Shown here one piece after another: positions 48,010-55,061 of a stretch of DNA of 64,000 nt. The position numbers and the translations under genes are program-made. Origin of the DNA: Natrinema pellirubrum DSM 15624 (GTDB lineage: Archaea > Halobacteriota > Halobacteria > Halobacteriales > Natrialbaceae); NCBI RefSeq assembly GCF_000230735.2, contig NC_019962.1, positions 3,720,001 through 3,784,000 of the forward strand, given 5' to 3'. The notes under the pieces were generated by a model that did not search any database, was not told the DNA's origin, and saw nothing but the letters and a program-made list of their open reading frames with translations. Numbering within the stretch: the stretch's first letter is position 1; every line of letters starts with the position of its first letter.

Positions 48010-48272
48010 ATCGAACGGATGACGGACGCAGTGAAAGGTGTGGCGGGACCCACTCGGAAACATCGACCGCAACGGCGTTCGTCCCATCGGTCGCCACGCT
48101 CTATCCTGGCGTAATAACCATAAAATATATCAGACTATGTAGAAAATTTGATTTTGTATAAACTGCCATGAATAAACCAGCACCGGATAGACGCCGTGTG
48201 GGTACAAGCATCGCCGATGGACCGATTGCGGCCCGGATGAGGGCGTAACCAGTTACGGAAGGAGGACCGAGA

Positions 48273-48482
48273 ATGCCAGTACTCTCGATCTTCGGTCGAC
48301 TGAATCGACTGCTAATAGAGAACCACGTCGTTCACGGCATCATCGCAGCCGTGGTCGTGTTCGCCGTCAAAATCGGGTTCGACGTAGCCACGGGCAAAGA
48401 CCCGTCGGTACTCGAGGCGGTCGTCGCCGGCGTGGTCTTGGGAGCGATCTACTACGGGGGATTGAAATACGGCGCCTCGTAG
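48273..48482 (+). CDS. Small two-helix membrane protein
   Basis: A 69-aa protein with two hydrophobic segments (about residues 19-36 and 48-63). A strong Shine-Dalgarno-like GGAGGA (48261-48266) precedes the ATG, unusual among the mostly leaderless genes here. It ends 13 nt before the next gene, so the two are probably one operon. Function unknown. Confidence 0.65.
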   Translation: MPVLSIFGRLNRLLIENHVVHGIIAAVVVFAVKIGFDVATGKDPSVLEAVVAGVVLGAIYYGGLKYGAS

Positions 48483-48495
48483 CCGGCCGCGAGAG

Positions 48496-50118
48496 ATGTC
48501 GCGACGATATCGAGCCCTCATCGATGGCCTGCGGATTGGATACGTTGACGGAGTACGAGACTGGCGGACGCTCAGGCGAGAACCCCTTCGGCTCGCATTG
48601 CTCGTCTGTGGCGGTGTCGTGTCGTGTCTCTATCTAGGGCTGATGGCGCTGGTCATCGAGGGCGGCACCGCGGAACTCGTGGCTCGCTCCGACCCGACGC
48701 TTCCGCCGCTGGTCGGACTGTTCACGACGTTGTTGTGGCTGTCGAGTACCGCGTTGTTCGGCCAGCGGGCGGCGATGCGGGTCGACGATATCGAAAACGC
48801 GTCGCTGCTACTGACGAGTACGGGACCGACGGCGGTGACGATCGGAGTTCTGGTCGGTGAATACGTCCGCGCGCTCGCCTTCGCGCTCCTGCCGACGGGG
48901 CTCCTCGGTCTCGGCTTTCTCTCGGGAGCCGATACGTACGCACCGCTGGTTACCGTCCCACTGACGGTCTGTCTCGCACTGCTGAGTAGCGTCTGTTGTG
49001 GCTACGCGGCCGGCTCCGGAATCGCCCTGTTCAGTCGGCGGTCGAAGTGGAAGACGTCGTTCGTGGCCGGTGGAATCGCACTCGTCACTGTCGCCGGTCT
49101 CGTCGTCGCCATGAGCCGACTCGGTACGGCTCCCGAACTCGCCGCGCGCTTGCCGCCGAGCTGGTACGGCGATCTCCTCGCCGTCGGAACACCGATCGAA
49201 GCGTCACCGTACCGAGCCGTCGGCGCGGTACTTGGAACGGGCGTTCTCGTCGCTGCGTGCGGGAGCGCAACGAAACGGACCACGACGGCCCTTTGGCTGG
49301 ACGGACGGAACGCGACCGCCTACGAGGACTGGTCGGGCGGACGGACAGCGGACGAGTCGGACGATCGACTCGTCTCGGTCGCGTCGCTCGCGGAACGGGT
49401 CGATCGACCGACGCGCTGTGTCGCATGCCGGTCGGTCCGTCGGGCGAAACGACGTCCGTCTCGGCTCTCGCACCTTGCGTTGCCGCTGCTTATCAGCGCG
49501 TGGCTGCTCGTTGATCTGGCCCGGATCGGGGATATCGAATCCGGGTTTCCGATCGCCGTCGGGCTCCTCGGGGCGTGGTTCGTCGGCGGATTCCTCACGC
49601 TGAACCCGCTGGGTGACGACGGGGCGGCGTTACCGACGACGCTAGCGTCACCGCTTGCCGGCCGGCAGTTCGTGCGGGGAACGGCGCTTGTCAGCGCCGT
49701 CGTCGGCATCCCGTTGCTTGTCGGAAGCGTCGCCGGGAGTGGCGTCGCGGCGTATTCGCTGCCGGTCTCCGTGGGACTCGCGGTCTGGGCCGGCGTTCAC
49801 GGGTCAACCGCCATCGCGATCGGACTCGCCGTCGGGATGGTGTTTCCACGATTCGGCGCGGTCCGTATCGGTCGACGACGGGACATCGTCCCGCCGAGTC
49901 TGACCGCCCTCGCGATCTACTCGACGATAGTGTTCGCGTTCGGGGTTGGAGGTGTCGTCGCCGTTCTCGGTCCGTGGATACTGTTCGAGGGCGATCCCAC
50001 AACGGTCTCCATGTTCGCTGGACTCTCAACGCTCGTTTGGCTCTCGATCGAGGCCGGAGTCGGATACGGCTGTTACCGGATCGCGGTCCGATGCTTCGAC
50101 CGCTACACGCTCGATTGA
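48496..50118 (+). CDS. Large polytopic membrane protein, ABC-2-like, without ATPase partner
   Basis: A 540-aa protein with roughly twelve hydrophobic segments in two halves, separated by a polar region (about residues 265-315) containing RCVACRSVRRAKRR. The first half begins DGVRDWRTLRREPLRLALLV. The general plan resembles double-length ABC-2 permeases, but no ATPase gene is adjacent; the nearest is at 45425-46174. Exact family not recognised. Its position upstream of the halocin gene makes export or immunity a possible, unproven role. Confidence 0.75.
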   Translation: MSRRYRALIDGLRIGYVDGVRDWRTLRREPLRLALLVCGGVVSCLYLGLMALVIEGGTAELVARSDPTLPPLVGLFTTLLWLSSTALFGQRAAMRVDDIENASLLLTSTGPTAVTIGVLVGEYVRALAFALLPTGLLGLGFLSGADTYAPLVTVPLTVCLALLSSVCCGYAAGSGIALFSRRSKWKTSFVAGGIALVTVAGLVVAMSRLGTAPELAARLPPSWYGDLLAVGTPIEASPYRAVGAVLGTGVLVAACGSATKRTTTALWLDGRNATAYEDWSGGRTADESDDRLVSVASLAERVDRPTRCVACRSVRRAKRRPSRLSHLALPLLISAWLLVDLARIGDIESGFPIAVGLLGAWFVGGFLTLNPLGDDGAALPTTLASPLAGRQFVRGTALVSAVVGIPLLVGSVAGSGVAAYSLPVSVGLAVWAGVHGSTAIAIGLAVGMVFPRFGAVRIGRRRDIVPPSLTALAIYSTIVFAFGVGGVVAVLGPWILFEGDPTTVSMFAGLSTLVWLSIEAGVGYGCYRIAVRCFDRYTLD

Positions 50119-50125
50119 ATCCTCC

Positions 50126-50338
50126 TCACAGTTTCCGTCGAATCGTCCCTGCGAGGTCGAACCAGAACGAGAGGACACCACAGACGAGTATCCCGACGAT
50201 CGCAGCGAGATACACCTCGAGCCCGAGCGTCTCGAGCATCCAATCGGGGTCGAGGAACCCCGACGCGACGATCAGCCCACAGAGGGCCGCTACGCCCGTG
50301 ATCAACAGGGCGATCGGCAGCGAGGTTTGACGGTTCAT
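50126..50338 (-). CDS. Small two-helix membrane protein
   Basis: A 70-aa protein: basic N-terminus MNRQTS, helix about residues 8-27, short loop LDPDWMLETLGLE, helix about 41-60 and basic end TIRRKL. TTTAATAT on the minus strand (50363-50371) lies 25-33 nt upstream. Its size and position next to the halocin island would suit an accessory immunity or secretion protein, but this is inference. Confidence 0.65.
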   Translation of the reverse strand: MNRQTSLPIALLITGVAALCGLIVASGFLDPDWMLETLGLEVYLAAIVGILVCGVLSFWFDLAGTIRRKL

Positions 50339-50371: not shown

Positions 50372-50472
50372 GATGTTTACTAATTTCCGATTTTTACCGT
50401 TGGGCAATCCCGGAACTTCGAGAGAACGTGACAGGATATCGTTCGCGCCCACATATACATTTTCATAAAAAG

Positions 50473-50486
50473 AAATAAATACTATA
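50473..50486 (+). promoter_or_regulatory. TATA box for the FilR1-type regulator
   Basis: AATAAATACTATAT lies 33-46 nt before the TTG at 50519 and about 100 nt before the ATG at 50588, in AT-rich DNA unlike the surrounding genome. Confidence 0.45.
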
Positions 50487-50587
50487 TCGAAAATATAGAA
50501 ACTAAAGGGCCGGTCGAATTGACAGAAGAAGCGTACTCCGCGAACGCGCATCGGCGGATCAAACCAGAGTCGAGGCCGTCACTACAC

Positions 50588-51409
50588 ATGAACTTCGATA
50601 CCCAGACCGAAGTCGAGGACAGCGTCGAGAACGACACGTACGACGACGCGAAAGTGCTGATGGAGACGCGACATCGATTTCGACTGCTGCGTCTCCTCGA
50701 GCAGTCGTCACGAACGCAGTCCGAGTTGGCGGAACAAATGGACATCCATCGAACGACCCTCCGGCGTAACCTCCGCACGTTGCGACAGCAAAACTGGATC
50801 GCGGAAGACGGGAACCGATACGCGATCACGGCCGCGGGCGAGATCGTACTCTCGAGTTTCGACGAATTACTACGCGATGTCGAACGCGCGACCAAGCTTG
50901 GAACGTTTCTTACGGAGTGTACCGTCGATCTCCCCGAGGAGTTCCCCGCGCTGGGAAACGATGAAATCGCGTTGAACGGAGCCGACCAGCCGTTCGCTGC
51001 AGTGAACGAATTCATCGAATTCATCGAAACCGCGGACCGGTTGCAGTTGTGTCTTCCAGCGATAAACCCGAGATATGTGACGCTGCTTACCGATTTGTGT
51101 CCGACGACCCGAATCGAACTCGTCGGACCGAAGGAGTGTTTCGAAACGCTGGTCGCGACGGCGGCCGCCGAACTCCGAACGTTACGGCGATCGGACACGG
51201 TAGCGGTAACGGTAATCGATGAGCGCCCACCGTTCGGAATCTGTTTCGACGAGGACCGATGCATGCTGGTCGCGTACAACGACGGGGGCGGGATACACGG
51301 TATCGTTCGGTTCGACGATCCCGCGGGCGGTATCGAGAACTGGCTGGAAGACGAATACAGGTCGTTCGAACAGGGCGGACGGAACGCCGAACTACCCCTA
51401 ACCGAATGA
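50588..51409 (+). CDS. FilR1-type HTH transcriptional regulator
   Basis: A 273-aa protein. A winged HTH (about residues 25-85) reads RFRLLRLLEQSSRTQSELAE and DIHRTTLRRNLRTLRQQNWI. The methanogenesis-regulator FilR1-like middle domain follows (about 95-270), with FEFIETADRLQLCLP-type and AVTVIDERPPFGICFDEDR segments. An in-frame TTG at 50519 would add 23 residues and fits the TATA box better; the ATG fits the family better. It lies 238 nt upstream of the halocin gene on the same strand and is the obvious candidate for its control. Confidence 0.82.
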   Translation: MNFDTQTEVEDSVENDTYDDAKVLMETRHRFRLLRLLEQSSRTQSELAEQMDIHRTTLRRNLRTLRQQNWIAEDGNRYAITAAGEIVLSSFDELLRDVERATKLGTFLTECTVDLPEEFPALGNDEIALNGADQPFAAVNEFIEFIETADRLQLCLPAINPRYVTLLTDLCPTTRIELVGPKECFETLVATAAAELRTLRRSDTVAVTVIDERPPFGICFDEDRCMLVAYNDGGGIHGIVRFDDPAGGIENWLEDEYRSFEQGGRNAELPLTE

Positions 51410-51607
51410 GCCGGCGTCTGCCAGACGAGTCCTCGGTCGTGATTCGGTGACCCGCCGCCAGTGCCGAGATCGTCGACGCGGTAACCGTCGCTGCAGTCGG
51501 TCCGAGACGAATAACACCGTCGAGCGACCGGTCGGGCGGATTCGTGCGGGCCCTACACACTGAGTGGCAGTCGTTCGAGCGACACTGGATACTAATTCCG
51601 CACTAGA

Positions 51608-51618
51608 TACTATTAATA
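51608..51618 (+). promoter_or_regulatory. TATA box for the halocin gene
   Basis: TACTATTAATA is centred about 35 nt before the ATG at 51648. The predicted transcription start (about 25 nt downstream) falls after the ATG at 51624, supporting 51648 as the true start. Confidence 0.55.
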
Positions 51619-51647
51619 CACACATGAAAGAAATAATAACTGCAGCG

Positions 51648-52508
51648 ATGACCGAAGACGAACGCTCGGACGACAAGACGGGCATCGATCGACGAACGGT
51701 CCTCAGAACGGTCGGTACGGCCGGTGTTCTCGCGACCGGAACGGCCGGTGTCGCAGCCGCTGGCAGCCAGTTCTCGCGGGCGGAGGAAACGAGGCTCCTT
51801 ACCGGCGAAGAGAAACGGGAACTCGCCCGCGAGCTTTCCGAGACCGAGGCGTTCCGAGAGCTGGCACAGCAGGCTCGAGAGGACGGAAATCTGATTCGTA
51901 ACGAGGCGGACGGCGTCACTGCCGGCTACGCCACGGGTGAGGGATTCACTCGGGAAATTGTCGAATACGAGCTCAAGGGACTGAGCGACGCCGAGCGGGG
52001 CAGCATCGTCGTCGGACGCGACCCGACGACCGATGAGATCGAAGTCGCGAGCCTTGATTACTACTACGAGACCGACGACGGCGTTCTGGATGAGGTCCAT
52101 CGAACGGAATCCGCGGACGCGGCTGGGAGCGAACAGCTCGAGACCGCGACAGCGGACTCGGCGGGCGGAACGACGGTCATCTCCGTCGACACGGCGGCGA
52201 TCCGCAGGGTACAGGACGGCTCGACCGAGCTAGACGAGTCGGGCGCGGGCGGTACGGCGAACGGAACGGTCACGACGCAGATCGACGTCACGGGGTGTGA
52301 CGCCTGTAAGATCGTGGCCGGACAGGTCTGTAACGTCGGTTGCGGTGCGACCGGCGGCTTCATTTGTGGATTCCTCGGGATCACCGTTCCGGTTGCCGGA
52401 CTCAGCTGTCTGGGTCTCGTCGAGATCATCTGTACCGTCGCCGACGAGTACAGCGGCTGCGGCGATGCAGTCGCCGAAGAGGCCTGTGACAGAGCGGACC
52501 TCTGTTGA
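51648..52508 (+). CDS. halC8: Halocin C8-type precursor (immunity protein plus peptide)
   Basis: A 286-aa preproprotein. The Tat signal DRRTVLRTVG (Arg15-Arg16), a hydrophobic stretch and AAA near residue 38 target it for export. Residues about 39-210 correspond to the HalI immunity part, and residues 211-286 to the mature halocin. In Natrinema sp. AS7092 one gene of 283 codons gives both the 207-aa immunity protein and the 76-aa peptide (Sun et al. 2005); lengths here are 210 and 76. All ten Cys of the peptide are present. An ATG at 51624 would add eight residues but lies upstream of the predicted transcript start. Its composition is AT-richer than that of surrounding operons. Confidence 0.93.
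   Translation: MTEDERSDDKTGIDRRTVLRTVGTAGVLATGTAGVAAAGSQFSRAEETRLLTGEEKRELARELSETEAFRELAQQAREDGNLIRNEADGVTAGYATGEGFTREIVEYELKGLSDAERGSIVVGRDPTTDEIEVASLDYYYETDDGVLDEVHRTESADAAGSEQLETATADSAGGTTVISVDTAAIRRVQDGSTELDESGAGGTANGTVTTQIDVTGCDACKIVAGQVCNVGCGATGGFICGFLGITVPVAGLSCLGLVEIICTVADEYSGCGDAVAEEACDRADLC
52278..52505 (+). other. Mature halocin C8-like peptide region
   Basis: The last 76 codons encode a peptide starting QIDVTGCDACK and ending CDRADLC. Cys are at peptide positions 7, 10, 18, 22, 30, 44, 52, 61, 70 and 76. Its core, GFICGFLGITVPVAGLSCLG, is strongly hydrophobic. By recall, the known HalC8 peptide starts with Asp, has the same length and the same ten Cys, and differs mainly by conservative changes. 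The predicted cleavage is after TVTT; the protease is unknown. Confidence 0.85.
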
Positions 52509-52725
52509 TTCGACGAGCCCGCGATGCGGTATCGGTGAGCGGTCAGCAGCCCGCCGAGACCATGTCTCCGGGACATAGCGACCAGATAAGTACATAGCGG
52601 TCCCGGCTGCGCGCCGGCTCGGGGTCGCAGAGCCACCACCCCCATCGGGCGATACCGTCGGGGCCGCACGTTGGTCCCTGCCGTACGGATTCGGTTCCGT
52701 GTTGGATTCGATCTCGTCCGCGGAC

Positions 52726-53939: not shown

Positions 53940-55061
53940 ATGGATCGACGAACGTTCATCGGGACGGTCGGTGCGGGGACGGTCGCCGGCGTCGCCGGCT
54001 GTCTGACTCGCGATGGCGACGGAAACGGCGACGACGGCAGCGACGGCGACCCCGAGCCGGAAAATCCGGACCTCGAGGGGGAGCTTCGAGTCGCGACCTA
54101 CAGTTCGATGGTCGACGGCGAGAATCCGGCCGGAGAGTGGCTCAAGGAGGTCTTCGAGGAGGAGTATCCCGACGCCGAACTGACCTGGACGGTGCCGGAA
54201 AACGGCATCAACCAGTACATCGAGCGCGAGCGAAGCGACGTGGACCTCGACGCCGACGTCTATCTCGGCGCGAACGTCGACGATCTCGTTCTGGTCGACG
54301 ACCGACTCGAGGAAGGCGGGTTGCTCCGGGATCTCAACGTCGACCGAATCGACAACGCCGAGCGGATCCGCGACGGGCTGGACATGGGCGATCCTCACGG
54401 CCGGGTCCTCGCCTACGACACGGGCTACATCAGCCTCGTCTACGACGAGACCGTCGTCGACGAACCCGAGACGCTCGCGGATCTGACCGAACCGGCCTAC
54501 GAGGACGCGTTGCTCGCCCAGAACGCCCAGAGTTCCGATCCCGGCCAGGCATTCTTGCTGTGGACGATCGACGCCTACGGCGAGGATGGCTATCTCGATT
54601 ACTGGGACAACCTCGCGGCCAACGGCGTGCGCATCCTCAAAGACTGGTCCGAGTCCTACAGCGGCGCGTATATGGAAGAGGAGCGACCCATGGTCGTCTC
54701 CTACTCGACCGACCAGGTGTACGCAAACGAGTACGGCTACGACATGCGTCGCCATCAGGTCGCGTTCCCGAACGATCAGGGGTACGCCAACCCCGAAGGA
54801 ATGGGGATCTTCGAGGGCGCGAGCGAACTCGACCTCGCCTACGAGTTCCTCGATTTCGCCCTCTCGAGCGAGGCCCAGGCCGTCATCGCACAGCGCAACG
54901 TCCAGTTCCCCGCCGTCGAGGAGGAGTTCGTCGATCTCGACGACGAGTTCGACCAGTACGCCCACGTCCCGCCGGAGGCGGTGACCGTCGGCTACGACCG
55001 ACTCCGGGGCAACCTCGAGGGGTGGGTCGACGACTGGGCCCGCGAGTTCGCCGGCCAGTAA
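53940..55061 (+). CDS. Thiamine-type ABC transporter substrate-binding lipoprotein
   Basis: A 373-aa Tat-exported lipoprotein: DRRTFIGTVG, lipobox VAGC (Cys about residue 21) and an Asp/Gly linker. The body resembles TbpA/ThiB: VATYSSMVDGENPAGEWLKE, DADVYLGANVDDLVL, then AYDTGYISLVYDE and VVSYSTDQVYANE. First gene of a three-gene operon. Thiamine is the best guess; iron or another small solute is possible because the class overlaps with ferric-binding proteins. Confidence 0.85.
   Translation: MDRRTFIGTVGAGTVAGVAGCLTRDGDGNGDDGSDGDPEPENPDLEGELRVATYSSMVDGENPAGEWLKEVFEEEYPDAELTWTVPENGINQYIERERSDVDLDADVYLGANVDDLVLVDDRLEEGGLLRDLNVDRIDNAERIRDGLDMGDPHGRVLAYDTGYISLVYDETVVDEPETLADLTEPAYEDALLAQNAQSSDPGQAFLLWTIDAYGEDGYLDYWDNLAANGVRILKDWSESYSGAYMEEERPMVVSYSTDQVYANEYGYDMRRHQVAFPNDQGYANPEGMGIFEGASELDLAYEFLDFALSSEAQAVIAQRNVQFPAVEEEFVDLDDEFDQYAHVPPEAVTVGYDRLRGNLEGWVDDWAREFAGQ

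Follow-up and report, generated by a model that had tools for sequence, protein, structure and literature searches.

A divergent halocin C8 gene of Natrinema pellirubrum lies in a multi-gene locus whose small membrane protein gene A is also found at sites without the toxin gene

The window, by which we mean the whole stretch of 64,000 nucleotides of Natrinema pellirubrum DSM 15624 that was analysed, carries a halC8 gene and, ahead of it, four genes whose relatives also lie beside halocin C8 (C8) genes at other loci. The features of this locus are as follows, in window coordinates.

48273-48482, + strand: small membrane protein B, 69 aa, two hydrophobic segments (B family beside C8 genes at six other loci and on two plasmids)
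48496-50118, + strand: large multi-TM permease-like protein, 540 aa, no Pfam match (C8-associated subclade; absent at empty sites)
50126-50338, - strand: small membrane protein A, 70 aa, two hydrophobic segments (by alignment; kept at empty sites and adjoining other C8 genes)
50519-51409, + strand: wHTH regulator with HVO_A0261_N and FilR1_middle domains by Pfam, exact start uncertain (orthologs and distant relatives beside other C8 genes)
51608-51618, + strand: promoter-like box TACTATYAATA, 29 nt 5' of the start codon (sequence and spacing identical in four orthologs)
51648-52508, + strand, stop included: halC8 ortholog, 286-aa preprotein (PF22862 and TIGR04449 above cut-off; at the same place as halC8 of N. 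altunense AJ2 and 61% identical to it)
51648-51761, + strand: Tat-type signal region, residues 1-38, motif IDRRTVLRTVG
51795-52109, + strand: HalI-type (Hac8_like_N) domain, residues 50-154 (PF22862)
52278-52505, + strand: predicted 76-aa halocin, residues 211-286, ten Cys, about 7.5 kDa (TIGR04449 and alignment to the AJ2 peptide; cleavage position from alignment only)

The open reading frame at 51648-52508, with 286 codons plus a stop, is exactly as the original prediction described it. Its product was searched by hmmscan and matched PF22862, Hac8_like_N (E = 1.2e-36, 126 bits against a cut-off of 27), and TIGR04449, halocin_C8_dom (E = 1.2e-12, 48.6 bits against a cut-off of 24); both scores are far above the curated cut-offs, so a chance match is excluded. 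The prediction had further assigned the ten-Cys halocin C8 pattern to the last 76 residues and a HalI-type immunity region with a Tat signal to the N-terminal part, and both assignments held: the peptide part starts at Q211 and its ten Cys align with the halocin C8 family positions, the N-terminal part is 210 aa long against 207 aa in AJ2, and the twin-arginine pair at residues 15-16 aligns with that of the orthologs, so that export is predicted. The start codon at 51648 aligns with the start codons of four orthologs; an in-frame upstream ATG at 51624 has no counterpart in them and was rejected. The promoter-like box stands at the same distance in 5 of 5 genes (the window gene and the four orthologs), occurs once in the window and did not occur in 100 shuffles. 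A sigma-70 promoter scan was set aside as uninformative for archaea, and an AlphaFold2 model of the preprotein built from 4 sequences (mean pLDDT 31) was too poor for use. No solved structure matching the preprotein by sequence was found. Searches of phage records and viral contigs returned no relatives, which leaves a viral toxin reading unsupported.

Relatives were sought by a contig scan and by searches of 391 genomes of the class. The closest were found on genome contigs of N. altunense AJ2 and of Haloterrigena salina and its group, with 61-62% identity, and truncated copies were found by the same search in N. gari and N. pallidum. The AJ2 gene (L076, L010), which we take to represent halC8 (ProC8) of Natrinema, shares with the window gene the Tat signal, the PF22862 domain, the linker, the 76-aa ten-Cys peptide, the promoter box and the gene order. 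Aligning the two precursors (286 and 283 aa) gave 61% identity overall with all ten Cys kept; by region, identity was 53% in the signal, 70% in the HalI-type domain, 30% in the linker and 79% in the peptide. The predicted cleavage point falls at T-Q in the window preprotein and at A-D in AJ2, and the window peptide has three more acidic residues. From the sequence identity, the shared start and box and the conserved gene order, we concluded that the window gene is a divergent halC8 ortholog and a member of a known family.

More distant relatives fall into two sets. The halocin C8-like proteins of Haloferax and Halobacterium plasmids, the only two genera in which plasmid relatives were found, share the PF22862-type N-domain and the Cys pattern and are 27-38% identical over 77-98% of the query; their genes are plasmid-borne, unlike the window gene. 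Among the three plasmids examined, a relative of gene A adjoins the precursor gene in all three and one of gene B in two, and two of the three proteins end in the extension DVDIPYI. Other TIGR04449 proteins are also Tat-type preproteins with a C-terminal C8 domain, but they have no PF22862 match and are 26-27% identical to the query. They include two intact ones of the same genome (G000), at C1:2343158-2344024 (-) and C1:2069264-2069644 (-) (L072 and L073), whose N-terminal parts are unrelated or very diverged. A third C8-domain match in this genome, at C1:354391-354606 (-) (L074), has a TAA within the frame. Two unusual proteins were also seen: one of 673 aa in N. gari (L094, 7658-9679), much larger than the other preproteins, is of Tat type and combines a HalI-like stretch with a C-terminus that is Cys-rich and C8-like, and one of 154 aa (L086, 666-1130), lying about 14 kb from a C8 gene, is HalI-like, stands alone and lacks an export signal; it is possibly an orphan immunity domain.

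The two parts of the preprotein differ in constraint. Among intact orthologs, dN/dS by the Nei-Gojobori method was 0.00-0.16 for the peptide and 0.28-0.52 for the remaining preprotein, and the peptide is thus under strong purifying selection. Over 17 preproteins, N-domain distances correlate with peptide distances (r = 0.865), a value reached in 0 of 2000 permutations; the two evolve together, and shuffling between HalI and the peptide is unsupported. Nine of the ten Cys columns are kept in 17 of 17 preproteins and one in 16 of 17. The original prediction had taken Q1, D8, E67 and D74 of the peptide as marks of a distinct allele with strain-specific killing. These residues do differ from AJ2; E67, like D71, occurs in other halC8 alleles too and is not private to this genome. 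Since the peptide is the best conserved part, with no sign of diversification or shuffling, the results argue against the substitutions meaning strain-specific killing.

The gene order around halC8 is conserved and reads ABC ATPase, MacB-type permease, DUF5518, B, permease, A, regulator, halC8 and AI-2E-type permease. The permease, the regulator and A are about as diverged from AJ2 as halC8 itself, with identities of 52-60% and, for protein A over its 70 residues, of 69%; for the small gene B conservation was seen by profile. Most of the outer genes are 77-89% identical to AJ2, the exceptions being DUF5518 and the solute-binding protein with 61-62%. The window as a whole has a G+C content of 66.2%; in 50381-52725 it falls to 60.0% and in 48026-50132 to 63.6%. 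No direct repeats of at least 10 nt were found within 60 nt of the cassette boundaries.

Relatives of the neighbouring genes recur beside C8 genes elsewhere: A in L077, L080, L083, L090 and L091 and on three plasmids, B in L077, L082, L083, L084, L090 and L091 and on two plasmids, and regulators in L080, L095, L096, L099, L100, L105, L106 and L111 and on one plasmid. The regulator profile was seeded with several of these loci, so its low E-values are partly circular; the phmmer matches are not. The permease subclade adjoins C8 genes, together with a four-TM protein D, in L095, L096, L098, L099 and L105. Of the 16 permease matches above 420 bits, the strongest in the 391 genomes, 12 adjoin a C8 gene or its remnant; for A, about 49 matches were strong, and 12 of these are no more than 3 kb from one. 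Several C8 genes have none of A, B, D, the permease and the regulator within 5 kb, among them L072 and L073, the other intact C8 genes in this genome.

Two further observations concern the permease. At the five loci with protein D, the C8 genes are without PF22862, and the four-TM protein (120-127 aa) and the large permease are immediate neighbours in 5 of 5 cases; this protein is a candidate for a different accessory or immunity protein. Permeases of the C8-associated subclade also lie beside an ABC ATPase with no recognisable C8 gene nearby, in L112 and L113 (G234), L114 (G375:C3) and L115 (G087), where they may mark an undescribed secreted peptide.

Comparison with genomes lacking the toxin gene singled out gene A. 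In four genomes of the same genus (G025, G106, G192 and G302), the flanks are kept, with DNA identity of roughly 76-95% over long blocks and locally of 99-100% in G025, and the parts corresponding to 48025-50133 and 50380-52725 of the window are missing; A is the sole gene left between the flanks, and the permease, B, the regulator and halC8 are absent. Two other comparisons gave a similar picture: in G191:C1, compared with G356 and G295, the C8 gene is missing and A and B are kept, and in G210, compared with G112, the C8 gene and B are missing and A is kept at 92% identity. Matched occupied and empty sites in three independent lineages thus have the C8 gene gone and A intact. Moreover, N. pallidum and N. 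gari lack the regulator and the 5' portion of halC8 and have an intact A, with a dN/dS of 0.11 between the two; between the non-producers L118-L121 the value for A is 1.14, which is uninformative, being computed from only 4 synonymous changes and with some codons upstream of the likely start included. Because A is intact in three lineages without the C8 gene and beside decayed copies, we concluded that its retention does not depend on the toxin gene, which is what one would expect if A were an orphan gene for immunity or resistance.

No convincing C8 remnants were detected at the empty sites by tblastn: the two top matches (8e-5 and 1e-3) span 15-21 residues and fall outside the site, and those at L116 8124-8456 are weaker (0.011 and 0.043) and overlap with the AI-2E reading frame next to it. 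The aligned sites would be compatible either with loss in the empty state or with gain in the occupied state. Beyond the cassette, the substrate-binding protein gene at 53940-55061 (+) is 71% identical to its counterparts in G025, G106 and G192, where the surrounding genes are 92-97% identical, and 83% identical to that of G302, a more distant relative, as though it had been exchanged on its own.

Among halocins, halocin C8 is described as the best characterised one, with one gene for both weapon and protection. In strain AS7092, according to reviews, ProC8 is a 283-aa precursor exported via the Tat pathway, from which HalI and a 76-aa halocin mature (PMC11509114), and the halocin makes rod-shaped sensitive cells spherical and then lyses them (PMC6759562).

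We consider it probable, at about 80%, that the window gene is a halC8 ortholog making a Tat-exported preprotein that is cleaved to a HalI-type fragment and a halocin, with A as a possible extra factor. The neighbouring wHTH regulator probably acts on the conserved promoter box. By analogy with AS7092, the preprotein would be exported through the Tat pathway; it may fold with up to five disulfides, and cleavage in the linker would then release the immunity-type fragment (HalI) and the 76-aa halocin of about 7.5 kDa. The bond cut here would be T-Q, not A-D as in the orthologs, so the boundary is an alignment-based prediction, and this point counts against the explanation. As in AS7092, the halocin would damage the envelope of other haloarchaea and HalI would protect the producer. 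Protein A may give further protection or serve as an accessory factor, and the permease, B, the regulator and halC8 would come and go around it. The earlier claim that self-protection is encoded in one gene stands insofar as the halC8 gene carries an immunity-type domain; it leaves out the neighbours, above all protein A.

The persistence of A could also mean that the halocin is made and that the producer is protected mainly by A, perhaps with B, the N-terminal domain serving chiefly as a pro-domain that holds the peptide in an inactive form while it is being exported. Besides its retention without the C8 gene in the three lineages and next to the decayed copies, the occurrence of A or B relatives next to C8 genes at unrelated sites, and on plasmids too, would suit this. 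We nevertheless regard it as unlikely, though deserving weight, since A and B are both absent within 5 kb of several C8 genes and immunity in AS7092 is reportedly assigned to HalI, going by the titles of Sun 2005 and Mei 2008. Like the small membrane immunity proteins of bacteriocins, protein A is short, is predicted to sit in the membrane and has a gene that adjoins that of the toxin in several unrelated contexts; it is not confined to toxin genes and former toxin sites, and its relatives also occur in places with neither a C8 gene nor synteny to a C8 site. This last result weakens the assignment of protection to A and would suit, as alternatives, a housekeeping envelope role for A; an accessory role for other secreted peptides is another alternative.

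It is improbable that the locus is decaying or silent in this strain, with the intact frame a remnant from which no halocin is made: near relatives are without the gene and the copies in N. pallidum and N. gari are broken, but in this strain the reading frame is unbroken, the Tat signal, every Cys, the promoter box and the regulator are preserved, and dN/dS relative to the orthologs is low. That the C8 domain is a secreted Cys-rich signal or structural peptide rather than a weapon is very improbable, for the patchy distribution and neighbouring regulator would suit a signal too, but bacteriocins typically vary between presence and absence at a single site and decay in relatives, and the close homolog HalC8 is reported as a purified antimicrobial (PMC11509114, PMC6759562).

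With the halC8 ortholog and A as a possible extra factor as the preferred reading, we tentatively put forward a wider proposal, for which the odds are below even: HalC8-type loci carry a second self-protection gene, A, which is an orphan in non-producers. On this proposal, the model in which one gene covers toxin and immunity would be incomplete, and the locus would behave as a bacteriocin cassette with an orphan-immunity stage. Neither the gene cluster nor the orphan pattern of A was found in the part of the halocin literature that was searched.

As a natural variant, this divergent ortholog could serve to test how specific immunity is. Setting occupied against empty sites yields the prediction that the 70-aa membrane protein A may protect cells without the toxin gene; if true, haloarchaeal sensitivity to HalC8 could partly be read from genomes, and A, as the proposed additional membrane self-protection or accessory protein, would qualify the view that a single gene makes both toxin and immunity.
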